From NCBI RefSeq assembly GCF_003287975.1, contig NZ_QMKQ01000030.1, positions 1 through 39,953 on the forward strand: a stretch of 39,953 bases of DNA, given 5' to 3'. The notes below the pieces were generated by a model, which saw only the letters and a program-made list of their open reading frames with translations, made no database searches and was not told the DNA's origin. Every line of letters starts with the position of its first letter. The first letter of the stretch is position 1. Shown here piece after piece: positions 5,169-17,138 of the stretch. The position numbers and the translations under genes are program-made. This DNA comes from Arthrobacter sp. AQ5-05. GTDB taxonomy: Bacteria; Actinomycetota; Actinomycetes; Actinomycetales; Micrococcaceae.

Positions 5169-5981
5169 TCACGCGCCCGAGCGCACCGAGACCAGCAGGC
5201 GCGGAGCCACGGCACCGGATTTCATCGCCGCGGCCACGTTGCCCAGCCGATCCACCGGGTCGGTGCCCAGCAGGATCGGGGCGCCCAGCGGCGTCGCGGG
5301 GCCCTTGCCGGGCCCCGGCATTGACGCCAGCACCGCCGCGGTGCGGTCCTCGTCGGTCCCGGGCGTGAATCCGGCCACACGCAGGTGCCGGTGGTACGCC
5401 TCGGAGGGTTCCACGTAGGACGAAGAGGCAGCGTCGGCCCACGGCATCGGATAGTCCAGGGCGTTGGTTCCCATCAGGTCGTAGATTGCGAACACTCCCC
5501 CGGGGCGCAGCAGCCGGTACACCTCGGCGAACACCGCGGGCTTGTTCTCCAGGTTCATGCCCACGTGCAGCATGGTCGCCGCGTCGAAGGAGCCCGACGG
5601 CAGGTTGGTGGCCTGTACCGGGGCCAGCAGCATCGTGATGGACCCGGCCATGGAGCAGGCGGCATTCAGCTCCCGGGCCAGCAGCACGAACTCCTCGGTG
5701 ACATCGACCCCGGTGACCACCGCGCCGAGCTGCGCGAAGCGGCGCGCCGGGCCCCCGATGCCGGCCCCCACGTCCAGCACCCGGGTCCCGAGCCCGATGC
5801 CGGCCGCCCGGGCCACCTCCGCCGTGGCGTTGGCACCGCCGGAGTGGAACTGGTCGGCATCGCCCAGGTCGCCAGGAAGCAGCACCTCCGGTTCCTTCCC
5901 GGCGCTGCGCAGCGCCGCGTAGAGCCGCTCGCGCAGGTTCCCGGAGGTGTAGTGCCTGATGGATTGGTCGGTGTCGCTCAT
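5169..5981 (-). CDS. Class I SAM-dependent methyltransferase
   Basis: This is a 270-residue Rossmann-fold methyltransferase. Motif I, VLDVGAGIGGPARRFAQLGA (about residues 69-88), binds S-adenosylmethionine, and VTGVDVTEEFVLLARELN supplies the acidic end of strand 2. FDAATMLHVGMNLENKPAVF (where sterol methyltransferases and UbiE relatives have the post-I motifs) and RLLRPGGVFAIYDLMG (post-III) follow. The GGANAT segment before motif I and GIGGPAR recall sterol, tocopherol and glycine-sarcosine methyltransferases. The substrate cannot be told from sequence. The ATG at 5981 has an AAGGAG ribosome binding site 6 nt upstream; longer in-frame versions lack one. The neighbours on the same strand are unrelated, so it is probably monocistronic. 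Confidence 0.88.
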   Translation of the reverse strand: MSDTDQSIRHYTSGNLRERLYAALRSAGKEPEVLLPGDLGDADQFHSGGANATAEVARAAGIGLGTRVLDVGAGIGGPARRFAQLGAVVTGVDVTEEFVLLARELNAACSMAGSITMLLAPVQATNLPSGSFDAATMLHVGMNLENKPAVFAEVYRLLRPGGVFAIYDLMGTNALDYPMPWADAASSSYVEPSEAYHRHLRVAGFTPGTDEDRTAAVLASMPGPGKGPATPLGAPILLGTDPVDRLGNVAAAMKSGAVAPRLLVSVRSGA

Positions 5982-6125
5982 CGTGGGCTCCTTGGGGCCG
6001 GACGGGGCTCCATCCCGCCTCTCGCGGCATGCTGTGCCCAACGCCTGCCCCCATGATAAACCCGGGACAAAGCGGCCGTCACCGGTGGTTCATACCCGAT
6101 TCCCGCCGAGGCCAAGGAGGGGAAG

Positions 6126-7773: not shown

Positions 7774-7884
7774 GCTCCCGCATTTCGCGAGCATTTTCCA
7801 AATGAGGCACGGACCCCATTTCGCGAGCACTTTTCATGAGTCTCGCCGGACCCCATTTCGCGAGCACTTTTCATGAGTCTCGCC
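7774..7884. repeat. Tandem 37-bp repeat, possible IS21-type terminal array
   Basis: Two perfect 37-bp copies lie head to tail (7811-7847 and 7848-7884), each containing CATTTCGCGAGCACTTTTC and ending ATGAGTCTCGCC. A third, degenerate copy of the core (CATTTCGCGAGCATTTTCC) begins at 7781, so the cores sit at 7781, 7817 and 7854, spaced 36 and 37 bp. Serial short repeats of this kind mark the ends of IS21-family transposons, but no transposase gene is near. It may be a solo end or a regulatory array upstream of the DUF427 gene. Confidence 0.6.
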
Positions 7885-7925
7885 GTGCCCTTGACCGCGG
7901 GAAGGGGCGCGCGCATACTGGCGCC

Positions 7926-8726
7926 GTGGCCACCCGTATTTCGCACCTGATCAATGCCGCGCTGCCCGAGTTGCGGTACGAACCCACCGCCAAGCGCGTG
8001 CGGGCAAGCCTCGGTGGCGCCCCGGTCCTTGACTCGGTCTCCGCAGTGCTTTTGTGGGAGCCACGGCCCGTCGTGCCGATCTATGCGGTCCCCGAATCCG
8101 ATGTGCTGGCCCAGCTGTCCGTGTCCACCGCCATCGTCCCCGCGGGCCCCGTCGAGGCCAAGGTCCTTACCCCGGAGGACGCCTTCGCACTGCACACCAC
8201 CAAGGGAACGGTGCTGGATGTCGAGGTTGCCGGGCGCACGCTTTCGGCCGCGGCCTTCCGGCTGTCGGACCCCGGATTGCCGGGCATCGTCGCCTTCGAC
8301 TTCCGCTCATTCGACTGGCTGGAGGAGGATGGGCCCATCGATGCGCACCCGCGCGATCCCTTCAAGCGGGTCGATATCCTCGCCTCGAGCAGGCACGTGC
8401 GCGTGGAGCTTGAGGGCATGTTGCTGGCCGAGTCCAGGCACCCGCGAATGCTCTTTGAGACACACGTGCCCGCGCGCTACTACGTGCAGCCGAGCGAGGT
8501 GGCGTGGGATGCGCTGGTGGCCACCAACAGCTCCAGCAAATGCCCCTACAAGGGCACGGCCAACTACTGGGCTCCGGCCAGCGGCGGCCGGGACGTGGCG
8601 TGGAGCTACGCGAACCCGCTGCCCGAGGCCGCCGCGATCGCCGGGCTGCTGTGCTTCTACAACGAGCGCACGGATTACATCGTCGACGGGCACCGCCTGC
8701 CGCGCCCGCAGACCCCGTTCGGGTAG
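7926..8726 (+). CDS. DUF427 domain protein (two DUF427-like units)
   Basis: This 266-residue protein starts at a GTG (VATRISHLINAALPEL). The C-terminal unit carries the DUF427 signatures RYYVQPSEVAWDALVATNSS, CPYKGTANYWA and VAWSYANPLPEAAAIAGLLC, ending FYNERTDYIVDG. The N-terminal half (RVRASLGGAPVLDSVSAVLL, PIYAVPESDVLAQL) looks like a second, more diverged copy. DUF427 proteins are small beta-rich cytoplasmic proteins of unknown function. No Shine-Dalgarno sequence is seen, and a CATACT hexamer at 7914-7919 lies only 6 nt before the start, so the message may be leaderless. An upstream ATG at 7836 would add 30 residues encoded by the tandem repeat and is unlikely. It sits alone between repeats and a pseudogene. 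Confidence 0.85.
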   Translation: MATRISHLINAALPELRYEPTAKRVRASLGGAPVLDSVSAVLLWEPRPVVPIYAVPESDVLAQLSVSTAIVPAGPVEAKVLTPEDAFALHTTKGTVLDVEVAGRTLSAAAFRLSDPGLPGIVAFDFRSFDWLEEDGPIDAHPRDPFKRVDILASSRHVRVELEGMLLAESRHPRMLFETHVPARYYVQPSEVAWDALVATNSSSKCPYKGTANYWAPASGGRDVAWSYANPLPEAAAIAGLLCFYNERTDYIVDGHRLPRPQTPFG

Positions 8727-9290: not shown

Positions 9291-9534
9291 GCCGGAGCGG
9301 GCTCCGGGGTGTCCGGGGCGGGCACCGGCCTCGGCTTGGATCTGGTTCCTGGCACCGGAGTTGCAAACGGCGCGATGGGTTGTGGAATCCAGGAGGGGCA
9401 AAACCATCCGGTCGATCGGGGAGCCATGTTTCTGACCGCCCCCCCGAGACAAGACCAAGCGCAGGCGGCGGACCCATCGGCCCACCGCCCACCTCACGCG
9501 TCCATGGCGAGAGTCCTCCCCTGGTAGGCCGGAG

Positions 9535-9747
9535 CTACAGCGGCCAGTTGTTGTTCTTGGCGATGGAGCTAGTGCCGGTGCTGTCATTGAGCGTCACGTC
9601 GACCAAGGGCCAGTTGTTGTTTCCACCCAAAGTCTTGGAGATGCCGATGCTCTGCACCGATACGCCGTCGGGCTGCACGGCACCGCCAACAACAACCGCA
9701 CCGGCAATCAGCACGGCAGCAAGGGCCGAACCAAGGATCTTCTTCAT
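9535..9747 (-). CDS. Small secreted peptide precursor with two NNNWPL repeats
   Basis: The product is 70 residues. It begins MKKILGSALAAVLIAGAVVV, a clear Sec signal peptide with basic n-region and hydrophobic core, and is likely cut near GGA-VQPDG. The remaining ~40 residues contain NNNWPL twice: once after KTLGG (residues 43-48) and once as the last six residues, after SSIAK. The two copies use different codons for Pro and Leu (CCC TTG versus CCG CTG), so the peptide rather than the DNA appears conserved. A GGAG ribosome binding site sits 5 nt before the ATG. It is divergent from the TPR gene at 9978 with about 230 bp between starts. The arrangement recalls Phr-type pheromone precursors, whose active peptide is a C-terminal 5-6-mer. 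Function is inferred only; a small structural or antimicrobial peptide is possible. Confidence 0.75.
   Translation of the reverse strand: MKKILGSALAAVLIAGAVVVGGAVQPDGVSVQSIGISKTLGGNNNWPLVDVTLNDSTGTSSIAKNNNWPL
9538..9555 (-). repeat. C-terminal copy of the NNNWPL peptide repeat
   Basis: It encodes NNNWPL as AAC AAC AAC TGG CCG CTG directly before the TAG stop, and is preceded by lysine. Confidence 0.85.
9604..9621 (-). repeat. Internal copy of the NNNWPL peptide repeat
   Basis: It encodes NNNWPL as AAC AAC AAC TGG CCC TTG, differing from the C-terminal copy at two synonymous positions, and is preceded by Gly-Gly. Confidence 0.85.
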
Positions 9748-9964
9748 GTGTTCTCCGTCTCATAGAATGTTCGGGCGAGTGAGCGGGGTCGTGCCCATCA
9801 TGCCCGCACCCTGGAACGGGCCGGCAACCCCCCGCTGTCATTCTAACGCTCACCTGTTGTTTTGAGGCGGAATTCATCATCATGTTTCCAGGGAAAAGGA
9901 GTCCGCACGAGTTCCAGGGAGCCGTGCGGAGGAAAACCAGCTACACGGCGTCGGGCCGATGCAG

Positions 9965-9970
9965 CATAAT
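9965..9970 (+). promoter_or_regulatory. Possible -10 element of the TPR gene
   Basis: CATAAT lies 7 nt before the ATG at 9978. With the usual spacing, transcription would start at or next to the ATG, giving a leaderless message as is frequent in actinobacteria. No good -35 box is visible, so this is tentative. Confidence 0.3.
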
Positions 9971-9977
9971 AGAGGGT

Positions 9978-10961
9978 ATGTCCAGCCCTCATTTCGAAGC
10001 ACTGGCCGCGAAGGCGGAAGCGCACCACCGCAGGATCCGGAATTCGGGAGACCAGCAGCAGGTGCTTGAGGCCGCCCGCGAATGTGCCGGTATCTATGCC
10101 GCCATGGGCGACCGGGTGAAGGAATCCGATTTCCTTTACGACATGGGGAAAAGCCAGGTCTTGACCGGTGCCTATGCAGCAGCCTTCGAGACAGCGGGAC
10201 GTCTACTGGCCTTCGCCCGGACGGACGGCGACCCGGTGTTCAAGGCCCAGGTCTTGATCCTGCGTGCAGCAGCCCTTCGCAACCAATCACGACATGAAGA
10301 AGCAGTGGACACCGCCCGACTGGCGCTGGACGTCATGGCAAACGTCCAAGACAGCTACGATGCGCGGGCCGAGGTCTACCAGGGGATCATTGCGTGCTTG
10401 GTCGAGGCTGACCAGATCGTCGAGGCGTGGGTCCTGCACAACCAGTTGTCCGCCACATTGGAACATGTCGAGGACACCTTGCTGGCCGGACAGGGTTTTT
10501 GGACCCTGGGCAACCTCGCGTTCGCGACGGACCAGGTGGATGAGGGAGTCGCCTACCACCAGTTGGCGACCGATCGGCTTCAACAGGTCAACGACATCCA
10601 CATGTGGGCCCGGTTCAACAACGCCAGCGCCGATGTCCAGCTGCAGGCCGGAGTCGCCAGCCAGCGCACCGAGGACTGCATTGCCCGAGCCCAGCTTGCC
10701 TACGACATCATCGGAGGCAGCCCCGTGGAGCTCCTGGGACTGGCCGGCACCCGTGCCAAATGGTATATGGCCAACGGGAGGCTTGAGGAAGCGTCCCGTT
10801 TGTTGCAAAATGCGGTGGCGGAAGCATACGGCACCGGGGCGCCGGAGGACGCGTCCGTGCACGTGCTTTGGTCACAAATCCTCCACGCGTTGGGACGCAC
10901 ACACGCGGCGGAGCGGGAAAGCGAGCGCGCGGTCCGGATCGAAAGGTCAGCAGGCTGCTGA
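9978..10961 (+). CDS. TPR-repeat protein, possible peptide receptor
   Basis: This 327-residue, entirely helical-looking protein consists of about seven TPR-like helix pairs, for example VLILRAAALRNQSRHEEAVD, GFWTLGNLAFATDQVDEGVA and GLAGTRAKWYMANGRLEEAS. It has no signal peptide, membrane helix, or recognisable helix-turn-helix or kinase domain, so it should be a cytoplasmic binding or scaffold protein. Rap proteins of the RRNPP family have a similar plan (helical bundle plus TPRs, no DNA-binding domain) and are inhibited by imported Phr peptides. Sequence identity to Rap is not evident to me. It is divergent from the NNNWPL peptide gene, which suggests a functional pair. The ATG at 9978 is preferred; an earlier in-frame ATG at 9882 would run through the promoter region. 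It converges on the GH18-like gene with 29 bp between stops. Confidence 0.8.
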   Translation: MSSPHFEALAAKAEAHHRRIRNSGDQQQVLEAARECAGIYAAMGDRVKESDFLYDMGKSQVLTGAYAAAFETAGRLLAFARTDGDPVFKAQVLILRAAALRNQSRHEEAVDTARLALDVMANVQDSYDARAEVYQGIIACLVEADQIVEAWVLHNQLSATLEHVEDTLLAGQGFWTLGNLAFATDQVDEGVAYHQLATDRLQQVNDIHMWARFNNASADVQLQAGVASQRTEDCIARAQLAYDIIGGSPVELLGLAGTRAKWYMANGRLEEASRLLQNAVAEAYGTGAPEDASVHVLWSQILHALGRTHAAERESERAVRIERSAGC

Positions 10962-10990: not shown

Positions 10991-12556
10991 TCAGGAAGCC
11001 TTCTGGGATTCCAGAATGATCGATTTGACCTGTTCGTTGCTCAAACGGGACCATGGCGAATCCGCGGAGCCCTGGATGGCGGCTTCGGGGTTCTCGGTCT
11101 TGTTCCACCATTTGGACTCGAAGATCCTACCGTCGAAAACAATCCGGTCGCCCTTATCGTAGACCTTGTCCGAGGACCACGCCGGATAGATCCCCTGGGG
11201 AATTGCGATGGGTTCCTCGGGCTTGTCCCCGGGAAGCACCGGGCCAATCAGGATCCATGCGGTGGCTCCTGCATCGCTTGCCGGAAGGTCCGGCGCCTCG
11301 CCCTTGCTCCACCACTTGGACTCGTAGACATTGCCGCGCCACACAATGCGCTCAGCTTTCGGGTAGGCCGCTTCGCTGTTCCAAATCGGGTACGGGCTCT
11401 TCGCGGGGTCATCGACAATCGCTGTCTCCATGGGAGCGGCGATGGGCGCGGGGTTGGAATTCAACGCGGTGGCCGGTGAAACCAAATCCGCCGAAAGCGT
11501 CCGGGCAAAGGCCCCATCCTCCTGGGCGGTACCGCTGCAGTTGTTCGACACCCGCTGAAGATCGGGGAAGTTCGGCCCGCAGTCCATGTCCCTGTTGGCC
11601 GACCACATCGAGATCCTGCCGATGCCATTGGCGACGGCAAATGCCTTCAACGCACCGGCATCGTCCAAAGTGAACACCTCTCCAAGGAGGTCGTTCTGCC
11701 CGATCATAGGTGTGAGTCCGATCTTGGCCCACAGCGTCTGGTCTCCGAGTTGCCGACCCTGCTGCTCGTACAGCGCCTTCAATTGCCGATGGGCGCTGCC
11801 TGCCCCCTGCTCGGCGGCCGCCGACATGCTCTGCCCGGTGGCGCGGGTACTTCCGAAGTTCATGGTCATGAGGTTCACGCCTGCCAGGTCGACGCCGCTC
11901 TCGAGAAGCCGCTTGACCTCGCCGAGGCCGGACTCGGTCAATCCCCTTGTGTCCACGGGAAGGGTCACCCACACTTCCAAGGGTTTTCCCTTTTCCGTGG
12001 CGCGGTTCTGGAGTGCTGCCACCGCGGAGCCGCGTCGCAGGGAGGCCGCGGAATCCTCGAGGTCGTTTCCTTCGACATCCAGATCGAGCGTGGTCGAGTC
12101 GTATCGCTCAAGGAACGACTCGTACCCGGCGATGATCTTCTGCTCATCCGTGCAGGCGGTGGCAAGTTCGTCGTTGTTTAACCCACCGCTGGAAATGACG
12201 ATTTCGCCACCTTGTTCGCGCACCCGGGCAACTTTGCGGTCCAGGTCGAACGTTTCGTTGGCGCCATCCATGCTGTAGTAGCCACCCCAGGAGTTTGCGC
12301 AGGAGTTTTTGGGATCGGCCACGGCGAACCCCAGGACCACGCGTTCCCCCGGTGCAATATTCTCGGCGATCGGATAGAACGGCGTTGACGTCGCGTCCAC
12401 GTATGATCCGTACCAGCGACCCGTGTCGGCCGCCGTGGCCGAATCGCGAGTCGTGTTCCAGTAGTACGTTCCGGCTGCCAACAGTCCGGCGATTGTTAAG
12501 GCAAGAACCGTTACACGGAGCCAGGAAAGGCGTTTGCCCTCGGTCAAGGTAGACAC
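10991..12556 (-). CDS. GH18-like glycoside hydrolase with two C-terminal chitin-binding repeats
   Basis: This is a 521-residue exported or membrane-anchored protein. A basic N-terminus and hydrophobic helix (LRVTVLALTIAGLLAAGTYY, residues 13-32) act as signal or anchor. The catalytic domain, about residues 45-345, resembles family 18 chitinases: the strand-4 motif DSTTLDLDVEG matches DxxDxDxE with the catalytic glutamate at the expected place, and GVNLMTMNFGS matches the M-x-Y/F-D/N strand-6 region. Two CBM5/12-like repeats follow, each ending in the aromatic chitin-binding signature: YPKAERIVWRGNVYESKWWS and YDKGDRIVFDGRIFESKWWN. The substrate is probably a GlcNAc-based polymer. It is divergent from the GT2 synthase gene with a shared 259-bp region, so it may trim or release that polymer. 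The start is GTG without a clear ribosome binding site. Confidence 0.83.
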   Translation of the reverse strand: MSTLTEGKRLSWLRVTVLALTIAGLLAAGTYYWNTTRDSATAADTGRWYGSYVDATSTPFYPIAENIAPGERVVLGFAVADPKNSCANSWGGYYSMDGANETFDLDRKVARVREQGGEIVISSGGLNNDELATACTDEQKIIAGYESFLERYDSTTLDLDVEGNDLEDSAASLRRGSAVAALQNRATEKGKPLEVWVTLPVDTRGLTESGLGEVKRLLESGVDLAGVNLMTMNFGSTRATGQSMSAAAEQGAGSAHRQLKALYEQQGRQLGDQTLWAKIGLTPMIGQNDLLGEVFTLDDAGALKAFAVANGIGRISMWSANRDMDCGPNFPDLQRVSNNCSGTAQEDGAFARTLSADLVSPATALNSNPAPIAAPMETAIVDDPAKSPYPIWNSEAAYPKAERIVWRGNVYESKWWSKGEAPDLPASDAGATAWILIGPVLPGDKPEEPIAIPQGIYPAWSSDKVYDKGDRIVFDGRIFESKWWNKTENPEAAIQGSADSPWSRLSNEQVKSIILESQKAS

Positions 12557-12815: not shown

Positions 12816-15134
12816 TTGAATATCACCGATACAACTGCGCACACGGATCAGCCTGATCTTCGCAAGCGGCAATGGGGAGCGGAAAAACGTTCCGAGCCGC
12901 TGTCGATAGTCCATCCGATTCCATCGCGCGTCAAGCTGGCGTGGGGACGCATAGCCATCGTCACCACCATTCTCGCGTGGATCGGCTACGTCATCAGCAC
13001 CATCATGCGGCAGCTGGTCGACAACCCCGACGCCGGCTTTCGCTTCAGGTTCGAGGCCGCCATGTACCTTGCGGTTGTCACCTTCCTGACGTTCTCCGCG
13101 TTAATGTATCTCGTCGCCAGGCAGGGTGCACTGCTGCGCTTCTCGCGACACCGACGCGTGCCCCGCGGCGAACTGGACCGGCACTTCCGTTCCTACGACA
13201 AATCCATTACGACATTGGTCCCCAGCTATGCAGAGGAACCGACCGTGGTCAGGAAGACCCTGTGGTCCGTTGCCTTGCAGGAGTTCACCAATCTGCAGGT
13301 CGTGTTGCTCGTGGACGACAACCCCTACCCCATGAATCCGGAGGTCCTGGCAAAGCTGCAGGAGACCCGTTCACTGGCCTCGGATATCCAAGCGTCACTG
13401 AAAAAACCCTTGGACGCCGCGCAAGAGTTCCGCACCCTATTCGACCGACAGCGCGAGGCCGGGGCCGCCGAGGCCCAAATGCTCGCCACCACAGCAAGCG
13501 CCTACGAAGCTGCAGCGGCATGGCTCGAAGACATGGCCGCCGCGGAAAAGGTCGAGGACCACGTCGATGAGTTCTTTGTTGATTCGGTCATCATGGGCCT
13601 GGCGCGCGAGCTGCGTCTGACGCTGCTGGCTTTGAACGCGGCTGCTGCTCAGCACACTTCGCCCTCCAGCGACCGGCTGGAGGAATTCCACTTGCGCTTG
13701 GAACGCATCTTCTCCGTGCAGATGCATTCCTTTGAACGCAAGAAGTATGCAAACCTCTCGCAGGCGGTGAACAAGGCAATGAACTTGAACGCCTATATCT
13801 CCCTCATGGGCCAAAAGTGGCTTGTTGACAACCGAGGCGACGTGCAGGTTCTGCGCGCCCTGGACCCGGGACAGGACCTTTCCGACACGGATGAGGTCCT
13901 GGACATCCCGGATTCCGGGTATCTGCTGACCCTCGACGCGGACTCGCTGCTGCTGCGCGACTATTGCCTGCGCTTGGTCTATTTCCTGGAGTCCGAGGAA
14001 AATTCGCGCGTGGCCGTGACCCAAACGCCCTATTCCTCGTTCCGCGGGGCGCCGACTCGCATCGAGCGACTGGCCGGAGCCACTACCGACGTGCAACACA
14101 TCCTGCATCAGGGCAAGACGCATTACAACGCCACCTTCTGGGTGGGTGCCAACGCCGTGATCCGCAAGCAGGCGCTGCTGGACATCTGCCAGAAAGCCAC
14201 CGTGGGCGGGTATGAAATCCATACCTACATCCAAGACCGGACCGTCATCGAGGACACGGAGTCGAGCATCGACCTCGGCACCCAAGGCTGGACCTTGTCC
14301 AACTACCCCGAGCGGCTCAGCTACAGCGCGACGCCCCCGGACTTCGGCTCATTGGTGGTACAACGACGCCGCTGGGCCAACGGCGGCCTGTTGATCCTGT
14401 CGAAGTTCGTCCGCCAGATCAGCGAGCGCAAACGCCGCAACGAACGCGTCGGGTTGCGGGAGGTGCTGCTGCGGGTCAACTACATGGCATCGATTGCCTG
14501 GGCCAGCATTGGCTTGATCTTCCTCCTGGCCTACCCCTATGACGGGCGTTTGCTCAGCCCATTGATCTTTGCCGCGGCACTTCCCTATTTCATCGCCATG
14601 GGAAGCGATCTTCGGGACTGTGGGCATCGCTTCAGCGATATCTTCCGGATCTACGGGTTCAATCTGATCCTCCTGCCGGTCAATATGGCCGGCGTGCTCA
14701 AGTCGACCGAACAGGCCTTCACCGGCGAGAAGATCCCCTTCGTCAGAACCCCCAAGGTCCGCAACCGCACCGCCTCGCCAGGGCTCTACGTGGCCATCCC
14801 CTACCTGATCGTCGTTTTTTCGATCTTCACCATGTGGCGGGATTTCCAGAACAGCAATTGGGGCAACGTGGCCTTCGCGGCACTGAACACCGTGCTGGCC
14901 CTCTACGCCATCCGTGCCTACATCGGTTTCAAGAATTCCATCGTCGACATGACCCTGGGCCTGGTCAATTGGCTGTTTGTCCCGCCGCGGAAGGCCAAGG
15001 CCGCTGCTGTCGCCTATCCCGTGGCCACGCCGGAAAACACCGATTGGTCTACATTGCTGTATCAGGGCGACCGCCGGCTGGACCGCGACCTGCGCGGCGG
15101 CGGCGATCGCCGCAAGAGGATCGGGGTGAAGTAG
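12816..15134 (+). CDS. Membrane-embedded processive GT2 glycosyltransferase (polysaccharide synthase)
   Basis: This 772-residue protein starts with TTG, 8 nt after GGGGAG. Two helices (residues about 45-65 and 79-98) precede the cytoplasmic GT2 domain. The inverting family-2 motifs are all present: VVLLVDD (first Asp pair), LLTLDADS (DxD, about residue 372), IEDTES (catalytic Asp/Glu region, TED-like) and QRRRW (QxxRW, about residue 517), as in cellulose, chitin and hyaluronan synthases. Four to five C-terminal helices (for example AWASIGLIFLLAYPYDG) form the channel half. An insertion of roughly 190 helical residues lies between the first Asp motif and DxD. There is no PilZ domain. The partner GH18/CBM protein and the following c-di-GMP gene suggest a c-di-GMP-linked amino-sugar polymer; the product itself is not shown by sequence. 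The gene is followed after 2 nt by the STAS-like gene. Confidence 0.87.
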   Translation: MNITDTTAHTDQPDLRKRQWGAEKRSEPLSIVHPIPSRVKLAWGRIAIVTTILAWIGYVISTIMRQLVDNPDAGFRFRFEAAMYLAVVTFLTFSALMYLVARQGALLRFSRHRRVPRGELDRHFRSYDKSITTLVPSYAEEPTVVRKTLWSVALQEFTNLQVVLLVDDNPYPMNPEVLAKLQETRSLASDIQASLKKPLDAAQEFRTLFDRQREAGAAEAQMLATTASAYEAAAAWLEDMAAAEKVEDHVDEFFVDSVIMGLARELRLTLLALNAAAAQHTSPSSDRLEEFHLRLERIFSVQMHSFERKKYANLSQAVNKAMNLNAYISLMGQKWLVDNRGDVQVLRALDPGQDLSDTDEVLDIPDSGYLLTLDADSLLLRDYCLRLVYFLESEENSRVAVTQTPYSSFRGAPTRIERLAGATTDVQHILHQGKTHYNATFWVGANAVIRKQALLDICQKATVGGYEIHTYIQDRTVIEDTESSIDLGTQGWTLSNYPERLSYSATPPDFGSLVVQRRRWANGGLLILSKFVRQISERKRRNERVGLREVLLRVNYMASIAWASIGLIFLLAYPYDGRLLSPLIFAAALPYFIAMGSDLRDCGHRFSDIFRIYGFNLILLPVNMAGVLKSTEQAFTGEKIPFVRTPKVRNRTASPGLYVAIPYLIVVFSIFTMWRDFQNSNWGNVAFAALNTVLALYAIRAYIGFKNSIVDMTLGLVNWLFVPPRKAKAAAVAYPVATPENTDWSTLLYQGDRRLDRDLRGGGDRRKRIGVK

Positions 15135-15136
15135 CC

Positions 15137-15598
15137 GTGAGCACCCCTCCGCTTCTCGAAATGGTCTCCGGGCAGGCCGATCCTGCCCGGGACGCTGCCC
15201 CGCCGCCGGAAGCCCCGGGACAGACACCTGTGTGGACCATCGACAACGAACGTGCCGAGCTCACGCTTGTCGGCTCCGAATTACTCGAGGCCAAGTTCCA
15301 TCCGGGCACCGTGCTGACACTCGAAACGGCCCGCGAGCTTTGGGGCCTCGCGGACGCGCATCTCGAGCGGAAGATCAAGTACCTGATCGTTGACCTGTGC
15401 GGCCTGGACGGCGTGAAGGCCGATGCCACGGCCATGCTCGATCCCATGACCGATGGGATACGCGTGGCGCTGCTGGGAACAGGACCTGCGGATCGGGTTC
15501 TGGCCAGGTTCTTCATGCGCAGCTTCAATCCGGCGCGGCAGTTCACCTATGTCGAAAGCCGGCAGGACGCGCTGGCTTTCCTATTCGAACTTGTCTGA
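15137..15598 (+). CDS. STAS/SpoIIAA-like domain protein
   Basis: This 153-residue cytoplasmic protein starts with GTG only 2 nt after the GT2 stop, so it is translationally linked. After a proline-rich N-terminus (about 35 residues) comes an alpha/beta domain: VWTIDNERAELTLVGSELLE, LTLETARELWGLADAHLERK, then KYLIVDLCGLDGVKADATAM, RVALLGTGPADRVLARFFM and FTYVESRQDALAFLFELV. The strand-helix order and the LIVDLCGLDGV position, where anti-anti-sigma factors have their phosphorylation loop, fit the STAS or SpoIIAA-like fold and DUF7793-type proteins of this lineage. The serine or threonine normally phosphorylated is not evident. It lies between a polysaccharide synthase and a GGDEF-EAL protein, so it may tether or regulate one of them. 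The exact family is uncertain. Confidence 0.68.
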   Translation: MSTPPLLEMVSGQADPARDAAPPPEAPGQTPVWTIDNERAELTLVGSELLEAKFHPGTVLTLETARELWGLADAHLERKIKYLIVDLCGLDGVKADATAMLDPMTDGIRVALLGTGPADRVLARFFMRSFNPARQFTYVESRQDALAFLFELV

Positions 15599-15614
15599 CC
15601 GCGGGTCCACGGAT

Positions 15615-17138
15615 ATGGACGACTCCCGCATTCCCCGCATCGTCGATGCCATTCTCCGGATCGCGGACATGGACTTTGACACCCTGCTGCATCCCAGCAG
15701 CAGGCGCGACGAGATCGATGCCATCATCATGGGGATCAATGCAATGGCCTCGGACCTGGAGACGACGTATTCCTCGCTCGATCGCCGGGTGGCCGAACGC
15801 ACCGCACTGCTCGAGGCGGCCCGCGACCAGATGGCGTTGTTGGCCTATACGGACCCGCTGACCGGGTTAGCCAACCGTTCGGCCTTGATGGAAGAACTCG
15901 GGACGACGCTCAAGGAATTCGGCACGGGCACGCCCGCACCCATCCTGATGCTCCTAGACCTGGACGCCTTCAAGAGTATCAACGACACTTATGGTCATGC
16001 GATGGGCGACAAGGTCCTGTGCCAGCTGGCCGAGAGGCTGCGCGGCTGCGTGCGCGCCGACGACATCGTCGCGCGCCTGGGCGGCGACGAATTCGCCATC
16101 ATGGTGCGCGCACCGGAGCACACCGCCCTCACCGTTGGCCGACGCATCGTCGCGGCGATGAACCAGGACATGGTCATCGACGACATCCACCTGAGCCCGG
16201 GGGCCAGCATGGGCATTGCCAGGACCACGGCGGCCCACTCCCCCGACGGCCTAGTCCTCGAGGCGGACACCGCCATGTACGTGGCCAAGCGCTCCGGCAC
16301 CGAAAAGGTCGTCGAATTCGAACCGTTCATGCTTTTTGAGCGACGTGAAAAGGCGGAGATGCTCTCGGACCTTAGGAAGGCGCTGGGCACCAGCGAGTTC
16401 TTCCCCGTCTACCAGCCGGTCGTCTCCCTTCAGGACGAAGGAATCGTCGGGGCCGAGGCCCTGGTGCGGTGGCGTCGCACGGGGCACGGCTTGGTAGTGC
16501 CGGACCAGTTCCTGCCCGCCGCCGAGGAAGCGGGAATGATCGGCAAGCTGACCGAGTACCTGCTCGACCGCACGTTGAGCGACGTGAAAAAGTGGCGTGT
16601 GGCTAGAATCGTGGGCGAGGACTTCAGGGTTCATCTCAATGTCACGTCGCGTGAATTGCATAGCCTGGGCTTTGCCGACGAGGTTCGCAGAGCCTTGCGC
16701 CACCATGCACTACCGGCAACCGTGCTGGCACTGGAAATCACCGAGAACAATTTAATGTCAGACGACAACCTGCACCGCTATACCTTGCTGGCCTTGGCGA
16801 AGATGGGGGTTGAAGTCTTTATCGACGACTTCGGCACCGGTTATTCTTCTATCAGCTATTTGCGACAGTTGCCCGTGGCCGGAGCCAAGATCGACAAGTC
16901 ACTCGTTGACGACATTGCCGTGAACCCGAAGCAGGAATCATTCCTTCGTGCCATCTCCGACCTGATTGCGGCTTGTGAGCTTGAGTGCATCGTCGAAGGC
17001 GTGGAAACTGCCGAGCAGGCGGAAAAGCTCAGGGCCATGGGATTCACCACCGTGCAGGGATTCCACTATGCCTTTCCGATGGACTACACCGCCTTCGAGA
17101 ACCTGTTGGCCGTGCGCCGCCAAGCGCCCACGTCATGA
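15615..17138 (+). CDS. GGDEF-EAL cyclic-di-GMP synthase/phosphodiesterase
   Basis: This 507-residue cytoplasmic protein makes or degrades the second messenger c-di-GMP. An N-terminal helical segment (about 1-75, with DEIDAIIMGINAMASDLETT and a coiled coil before YTDPLTGLANR) resembles a HAMP-like linker without membrane helices. The GGDEF domain (about 75-240) keeps the active LGGDEF motif, and RADD five residues upstream is an intact product-inhibition I-site. The EAL domain (about 255-500) keeps GAEALVRW, NVTSREL, LEITEN, IDDFGTGYSS, AKIDKSL and EGVE followed by QGFHYAFPM, so the metal and substrate ligands appear complete. Both activities may therefore work. It ends the GT2 operon; 16 nt separate it from the STAS-like gene. 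A TTG at 15591 overlapping the previous stop is an alternative start. Confidence 0.92.
   Translation: MDDSRIPRIVDAILRIADMDFDTLLHPSSRRDEIDAIIMGINAMASDLETTYSSLDRRVAERTALLEAARDQMALLAYTDPLTGLANRSALMEELGTTLKEFGTGTPAPILMLLDLDAFKSINDTYGHAMGDKVLCQLAERLRGCVRADDIVARLGGDEFAIMVRAPEHTALTVGRRIVAAMNQDMVIDDIHLSPGASMGIARTTAAHSPDGLVLEADTAMYVAKRSGTEKVVEFEPFMLFERREKAEMLSDLRKALGTSEFFPVYQPVVSLQDEGIVGAEALVRWRRTGHGLVVPDQFLPAAEEAGMIGKLTEYLLDRTLSDVKKWRVARIVGEDFRVHLNVTSRELHSLGFADEVRRALRHHALPATVLALEITENNLMSDDNLHRYTLLALAKMGVEVFIDDFGTGYSSISYLRQLPVAGAKIDKSLVDDIAVNPKQESFLRAISDLIAACELECIVEGVETAEQAEKLRAMGFTTVQGFHYAFPMDYTAFENLLAVRRQAPTS

Follow-up and report, generated by a model that had tools for sequence, protein, structure and literature searches.

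Comparative analysis of a 39,953-nt stretch of DNA from Arthrobacter sp. AQ5-05 (GCF_003287975.1, contig NZ_QMKQ01000030.1, positions 1 to 39,953 of the forward strand; hereafter the window) points to a peptide signalling system, in which a small precursor that ends in the hexapeptide NNNWPL, and that is predicted to be secreted, is encoded divergently from a putative receptor made of tetratricopeptide repeats (TPRs). The pair probably belongs to an RRNPP-type peptide system in Actinobacteria, of which the branch without a helix-turn-helix (HTH) domain, i.e. that of the window, would control cyclic di-GMP (c-di-GMP) and exopolysaccharide. Cytoplasmic receptors of peptide pheromones have been described for Firmicutes, and searches of open-access articles in PMC turned up no actinobacterial system of this sort. 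Passages of a 2023 survey indicate that complete genomes of Firmicutes and viruses were scanned and that actinobacterial signals are typically small molecules (PMC10075063). The elements of the pair are the following.

9535 to 9747, minus strand: peptide-signal precursor of 70 residues, predicted to be secreted (translation; orthologs share the layout)
9604 to 9621, minus strand: internal NNNWPL copy, residues 43-48 (translation, codons)
9538 to 9555, minus strand: C-terminal NNNWPL copy, residues 65-70, the exact protein end (translation, codons)
9978 to 10961, plus strand: putative HTH-less TPR receptor of 327 residues, divergent from the precursor (Pfam, AlphaFold2)

The translation of 9535-9747 starts with a Lys-rich segment followed by a hydrophobic stretch, a Sec-type N-terminus as called by hydropathy and not by a signal-peptide program. 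A first-pass annotation of the window had described a 70-residue precursor with two NNNWPL copies, one at the exact C-terminus, that differ at synonymous positions only. Translation and codon reading agree with this: the copies are encoded by AACAACAACTGGCCCTTG and AACAACAACTGGCCGCTG, in which the Pro and Leu codons differ, synonymously in both cases. Within the 4.65-Mb genome the pattern NNNWP is unique to the precursor (the reversed control gave 0 matches). As to the expected conservation of the hexapeptide in orthologs, NNNWPL is retained in six close relatives (L004-L009) and replaced by NNNWPF in L010; in the family at large the core is mostly [VI]-G-x-W-P-x.

In the case of the TPR protein the listed open reading frame (ORF) begins at 9882, and the ATG at 9978 was adopted as the start. 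A Pfam scan at E-values up to 1 matched TPR models and no HTH, and the AlphaFold2 model is an all-helical TPR structure (pLDDT 96.2), which bears out the earlier description of a divergent TPR protein that lacks a DNA-binding domain. Its length falls within the 250-500 residues by which the cytoplasmic TPR-fold receptors of RRNPP/RRNPPA systems are recognized, its cytoplasmic location being judged from the sequence alone. Its conserved residues include W175/N179 and W210/N214. The nearest named relatives are found in two Paeniglutamicibacter strains and Arthrobacter sp. C2.

TPR relatives were present in 34 of 99 relatives, and a profile of 23 rows recovered them in at least 115 of 245 Micrococcaceae genomes and at least 17 of 32 genera; a class-wide draw of 197 genomes yielded eight with a TPR relative, two of these being Micrococcaceae. 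Weaker family matches (e.g. genus g23) stand outside these family counts. For the locus comparison 120 further stretches were fetched. After removal of duplicates (L001, L002, L033-L037, L044) and non-family loci (L038-L043, L163, L164), and after merging of receptors that do not differ over their first 250 TPR residues, 142 distinct receptors remained. A secreted precursor was defined as a divergent small ORF at most 700 bp upstream with a Sec-like N-terminus (hydropathy) and a W-P past residue 22, a leaderless one as an ORF of at most 35 residues that ends in the W-P motif. TTG starts were allowed; the precursors of L021, L022 and L072 need them, no ATG start being present in that of L021.

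By these definitions 104 of the 142 receptors have a secreted W-P ORF, so that the adjacent small propeptide gene with an export signal that typifies RRNPP/RRNPPA systems is seen in these relatives as well as in the window pair; 8 have a leaderless ORF only and 30 have neither. Among these 30, L101 does have a precursor, with 8 copies, but it exceeds the length limit. Widening the limit added only this true precursor, along with nine conserved frames that lack a W-P repeat, and the original limit was therefore retained. The same test for twelve other dipeptides, with the W-P precursors removed, gave 0-5 of 142; applied to the upstream regions of 991 further long ORFs, it gave 20 secreted and 39 leaderless matches. 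The pairing exceeds these controls by far. No probability is attached to the pairing because related loci are not independent; that it is real is nevertheless near certain. The suggested actinobacterial analogue of Phr-Rap is thus supported by pairing and by conservation in relatives, and the accompanying expectation that TPR homologs are flanked by the peptide gene is borne out for 112 of the 142 but not for the other 30, L101 excepted.

Two tandem pairs occur in each of L083 and L097, every receptor having its own peptide. No W-P peptide was found for the extra copies in g7 or for an HTH-bearing clade of 13 rows (L107, L113-L115, L119-L122, L124, L126, L127, L129, L159), which has another conserved frame upstream. 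The peptide call for L162 is doubtful, and the tree label of L142 refers to a wrong ORF, a likelier one being present. The eight leaderless peptides (16-35 residues, at receptors L082, L079, L085, L139, L143, L148, L150 and L152) end in RVNWPF, IGDWPHA(A/D), VGNWPD or VGDWPD, and some may be chance; the five that end in VG[ND]WPD cluster together in the tree. Frames with four and two IGNWPDPM copies (L222:5028-5480 and L223:4955-5185, respectively) have no visible signal peptide and no receptor was found alongside; their genomes also hold a receptor-linked precursor, and the frames possibly represent unexported or second-source signals.

Around the W, the 104 secreted precursors share a clear-cut residue pattern that spans positions -3 to +2, where V/I (or N), G (or N), N/W/D, W, P and D/N/H/L/Y/F, in this order, predominate. 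Adjacent repeat copies differ by 171 synonymous versus 6 nonsynonymous codons at positions -3, -2, -1 and +2 (the motif-defining W and P are omitted from the count), and by 78 versus 342 at the linker positions -6, -5, +5, +6 and +7; the positions that belong to neither group gave 39:49 (-4), 43:29 (+3) and 8:44 (+4). Because core changes are nearly all synonymous and linker changes mostly nonsynonymous, the counts indicate that selection holds the hexapeptide frame from -3 to +2, as had been proposed from the two NNNWPL copies. The last WP lies one residue from the protein end in 44 of 56 HTH-less precursors versus 1 of 48 HTH precursors, 21 of the latter ending three residues past it. Of 61 HTH-less pairs, counted together with the leaderless ones, 58 have one or two copies; HTH pairs have as many as 8. 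At the sequence level this matches the short pheromone, in some cases repeated, that RRNPP/RRNPPA propeptides are expected to carry at their C-terminus or close to it, and NNNWPL may be the mature, re-imported form.

A chance or non-coding small ORF was ruled out by the genome pattern search, the pairing controls, the residue pattern and the codon counts. We further consider it very improbable that peptide and receptor work within one cell and no export takes place, the small ORF product being cleaved in the cytoplasm to act as a timer or inhibitor: although the leaderless peptides ending in VG[ND]WPD, IGDWPHA or RVNWPF beside eight receptors, and the two leaderless ORFs with GNWPDPM repeats that lie apart from any receptor found, suit such a role, 104 of the 112 precursors, that of the window included, are Sec-like by hydropathy. 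Moreover, some leaderless calls may be chance, and single cases prove little since 39 of the 991 controls match as well.

Half of the family carries an HTH, which the first-pass annotation did not foresee: by sequence motif an N-terminal XRE-type HTH is present in 72 of the 142 receptors and absent in 70, the calls being confirmed by Pfam in all three family members scanned. In a FastTree tree peptide types track the clades of the receptors, and four changes are required for the HTH label; the ancestral receptor layout may have included an HTH. The HTH-bearing relatives resemble PlcR-PapR and NprR-NprX in that they combine an N-terminal HTH with TPRs and have a secreted precursor next door, and a Foldseek search with an HTH-receptor model gave PlcR-PapR-DNA as third match (14% identity); they differ from these systems in phylum and in having up to 8 peptide copies per precursor. 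The window pair in turn is like Rap-Phr, namely an HTH-less TPR receptor adjoining a small Sec-like precursor, with the hexapeptide as the exact C-terminus and as an identical internal copy; passages of the literature report two ERPVGT copies for the Rap system of phage phi105 (PMC11343458) and propose that Rap lost its HTH within an HTH-bearing family (PMC9765709). The family of the window likewise shows HTH-less members inside an HTH-bearing family. Unlike Rap-Phr, the window system occurs in Actinobacteria, has a Trp-Pro core and a divergent orientation, and neighbours a gene for a GGDEF-EAL protein; the N-terminal three-helix bundle of Rap and NprR does not stand out, by eye, in the helix list of the window model.

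The association that distinguishes the HTH-less branch, likewise unforeseen, concerns a set of genes next to the receptor, in the window consisting of:

10991 to 12556, minus strand: protein like glycoside hydrolase family 18 (GH18) with a CBM5_12 domain (CBM_5_12 4.7e-10; Glyco_hydro_18 1.4e-4, below the Pfam cut-off)
12816 to 15134, plus strand: polysaccharide synthase-like protein of glycosyltransferase family 2 (GT2; Glyco_trans_2_3 7.3e-33)
15230 to 15598, plus strand: small protein between the GT2 and GGDEF-EAL genes, start not fixed (STAS-like by eye only)
15552 to 17138, plus strand: HAMP-GGDEF-EAL protein, the proposed receptor target, start uncertain (domain scans, locus comparison)

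GGDEF-EAL, GT2 or GH18-like relatives accompany all 56 HTH-less receptors that have a secreted precursor (56 of 56), none of the 14 HTH-less receptors that lack one and none of the 70 HTH receptors, a count that covers 140 of the 142 loci (HTH loci L027 and L031 are left out) with flanks of varied length. With 7-kb flanks on each side the GGDEF-EAL gene is found at 15 of 15, 0 of 14 and 0 of 32 loci, respectively; with these flanks one of the 14 (the L141 locus, as L239) shows a GH18-like relative (41% over 319 residues). GH18-like relatives were found beside TPR genes at other loci, and an ORF resembling the small spacer protein occupies the same place in 10 of 23 other loci shown. The gene order varies by clade, the module of L202 lying on the other side of the precursor. 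Among 15 genomes of the genus, 8 have both TPR and GT2 genes, 6 have neither and one has GT2 alone, its contig ending at the GH18-like gene. All 49 GGDEF-EAL genes that could be placed lie on the strand of the receptor, 42 of them downstream; a GGDEF motif is present in 46 of the 49 proteins, EAL or EVL in 45 and RxxD before GGDEF in 41, and no transmembrane-like stretch was seen in any of the 49. Together these patterns make a strong case, at the level of gene content, for a functional linkage of the HTH-less receptors to the module, and because the branch is tied to it, c-di-GMP and exopolysaccharide are the likely output.

An extracellular role of the W-P peptide, e.g. as a ligand of matrix or wall or as a small antimicrobial, with the TPR protein only regulating its production or giving immunity, would fit the export signal, the repeated units and the polysaccharide-like neighbours in the window; we consider it quite improbable, as peptide types shift along with receptor clades and as the same core stands beside HTH receptors that have no module relatives nearby (0 of 70).

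The proposed RRNPP-type system with c-di-GMP output also has to be weighed against several contrary observations. No RRNPP-named model was matched in Pfam or NCBIfam at E-values up to 1, only TPR and unrelated models; the fold match of the window protein is common to TPR proteins at large; and the 56 module-linked rows fall into just two clades, of 9 and 47. To our knowledge, RRNPP-named models do exist in Pfam. A profile search of PDB sequences gave no RRNPP chain among the best 60 of 82 matches, these being designed PPR/TPR proteins, LGN, AfsR and other TPR proteins; the structure matches include RapF bound to the ComA DNA-binding domain. The N-terminal HTH shared by all RRNPP subfamilies but Rap is absent from the window protein and present in its HTH-bearing relatives. 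Membership in a named RRNPP family was rejected for want of a model match, and we do not file the window pair there because it has no HTH, no RRNPP model match and a fold match that is not specific.

We infer the following route. The precursor would leave the cell by the Sec route and be cut to a short Trp-Pro peptide, i.e. NNNWPL or a slightly longer form, which an oligopeptide permease would bring back; such import is possible because the genome encodes 11 SBP_bac_5 proteins. The groove of the cytoplasmic TPR protein would then bind the peptide. In the HTH-bearing branch the complex would act on DNA, and in the HTH-less branch the receptor would act on the soluble GGDEF-EAL enzyme of the same locus, thereby setting c-di-GMP and what the adjacent GT2/GH18-like exopolysaccharide genes put out. 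A direct contact of receptor and enzyme we rate at slightly less than even. Comparable in this respect is RpfR, a GGDEF-EAL protein. A passage on this receptor of diffusible signal factor ties a quorum signal to c-di-GMP turnover (PMC6361424); its signal is a fatty acid, whereas the window system would use a peptide and a separate TPR protein. Alternatively, the pair is real and the HTH-less receptor binds a transcription factor, as do RapF and the Rap of pLS20, with GGDEF-EAL and GT2 as mere transcriptional targets. The HTH in 72 of 142 receptors, which the ancestral layout may have included, and the RapF-ComA structure match speak for this; yet no other regulator gene was seen to be kept in the loci (no systematic search was made) and the partner that recurs throughout is GGDEF-EAL, with all 49 genes on the strand of the receptor, which leads us to regard this alternative as unlikely. 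More tentatively, and somewhat short of an even chance, the system may be a widespread actinobacterial class of Trp-Pro pheromones with cytoplasmic TPR receptors of its own, which arose or diverged separately from the RRNPP systems of Firmicutes and in which the HTH-less branch acts on a soluble GGDEF-EAL protein by protein contact and not through a transcription factor, thereby tying peptide quorum sensing to c-di-GMP and exopolysaccharide.

The intergenic and downstream regions of the pair contain two further elements.

9965 to 9970, plus strand: CATAAT, a -10-like hexamer 7 nt ahead of the TPR start codon (alignment)
9461 to 9492, minus strand: terminator-like stem-loop downstream of the precursor (14-bp stem; weak)

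CATAAT lies 6-7 nt ahead of the TPR start codon in all six aligned sequences, and this kept position suggests a leaderless TPR transcript; a sigma-70 scan of the region found no promoter. The stem-loop is weak, as the terminator scan of the region gave 3 sites where shuffled sequence would be expected to give 1.2. A DUF427 protein (7836-8726, plus strand) and a methyltransferase (5169-6041, minus strand) are ordinary neighbours in the window.

Beyond the Micrococcaceae, distant HTH-TPR proteins of the class also have tiny secreted neighbours, with xWPxMCC (L041-L043), DIGWP (L039) or EWP (L169). Divergent secreted ORFs of about 40-50 residues that end in CC were found, in a count without chance control, at 18 of 30 distant XRE-HTH plus TPR loci from other actinobacterial families (L178-L189, L192-L194, L198, L199, L201), and perhaps represent a second class of peptide signals; their ends include PGDFCC, PGMYCC, HPPTCC, GPPVCC and GTWCC. 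On Streptomyces plasmids 4 of 8 relatives, again without chance control, have an upstream divergent I-[GD]-W-P ORF: the HTH-TPR genes of L225-L228 (NZ_CP106799.1, NZ_CP107797.1, NZ_CP108163.1 and NZ_CP016083.1) are accompanied by ORFs with DIGWP or IDWP, the peptide frame of L225 being doubtful. One of the four ORFs is annotated (WP_331719352.1); it begins with a Sec-like segment and contains IDWP three times. A phage-borne form was sought in two pattern-led scans of viral contigs, which gave no relative.

A conserved peptide-receptor class in Micrococcaceae, to which the Streptomyces plasmids add similar pairs, would open peptide quorum sensing in an ecologically and pharmaceutically major phylum. 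Its HTH-less branch would offer a route, open to direct testing, from a hexapeptide whose sequence is readable from the genome to c-di-GMP and matrix polysaccharide, and the plasmid-borne Streptomyces pairs may bear on the control of antibiotic clusters, because two of their loci adjoin condensation-domain, non-ribosomal peptide synthetase or ketosynthase genes.
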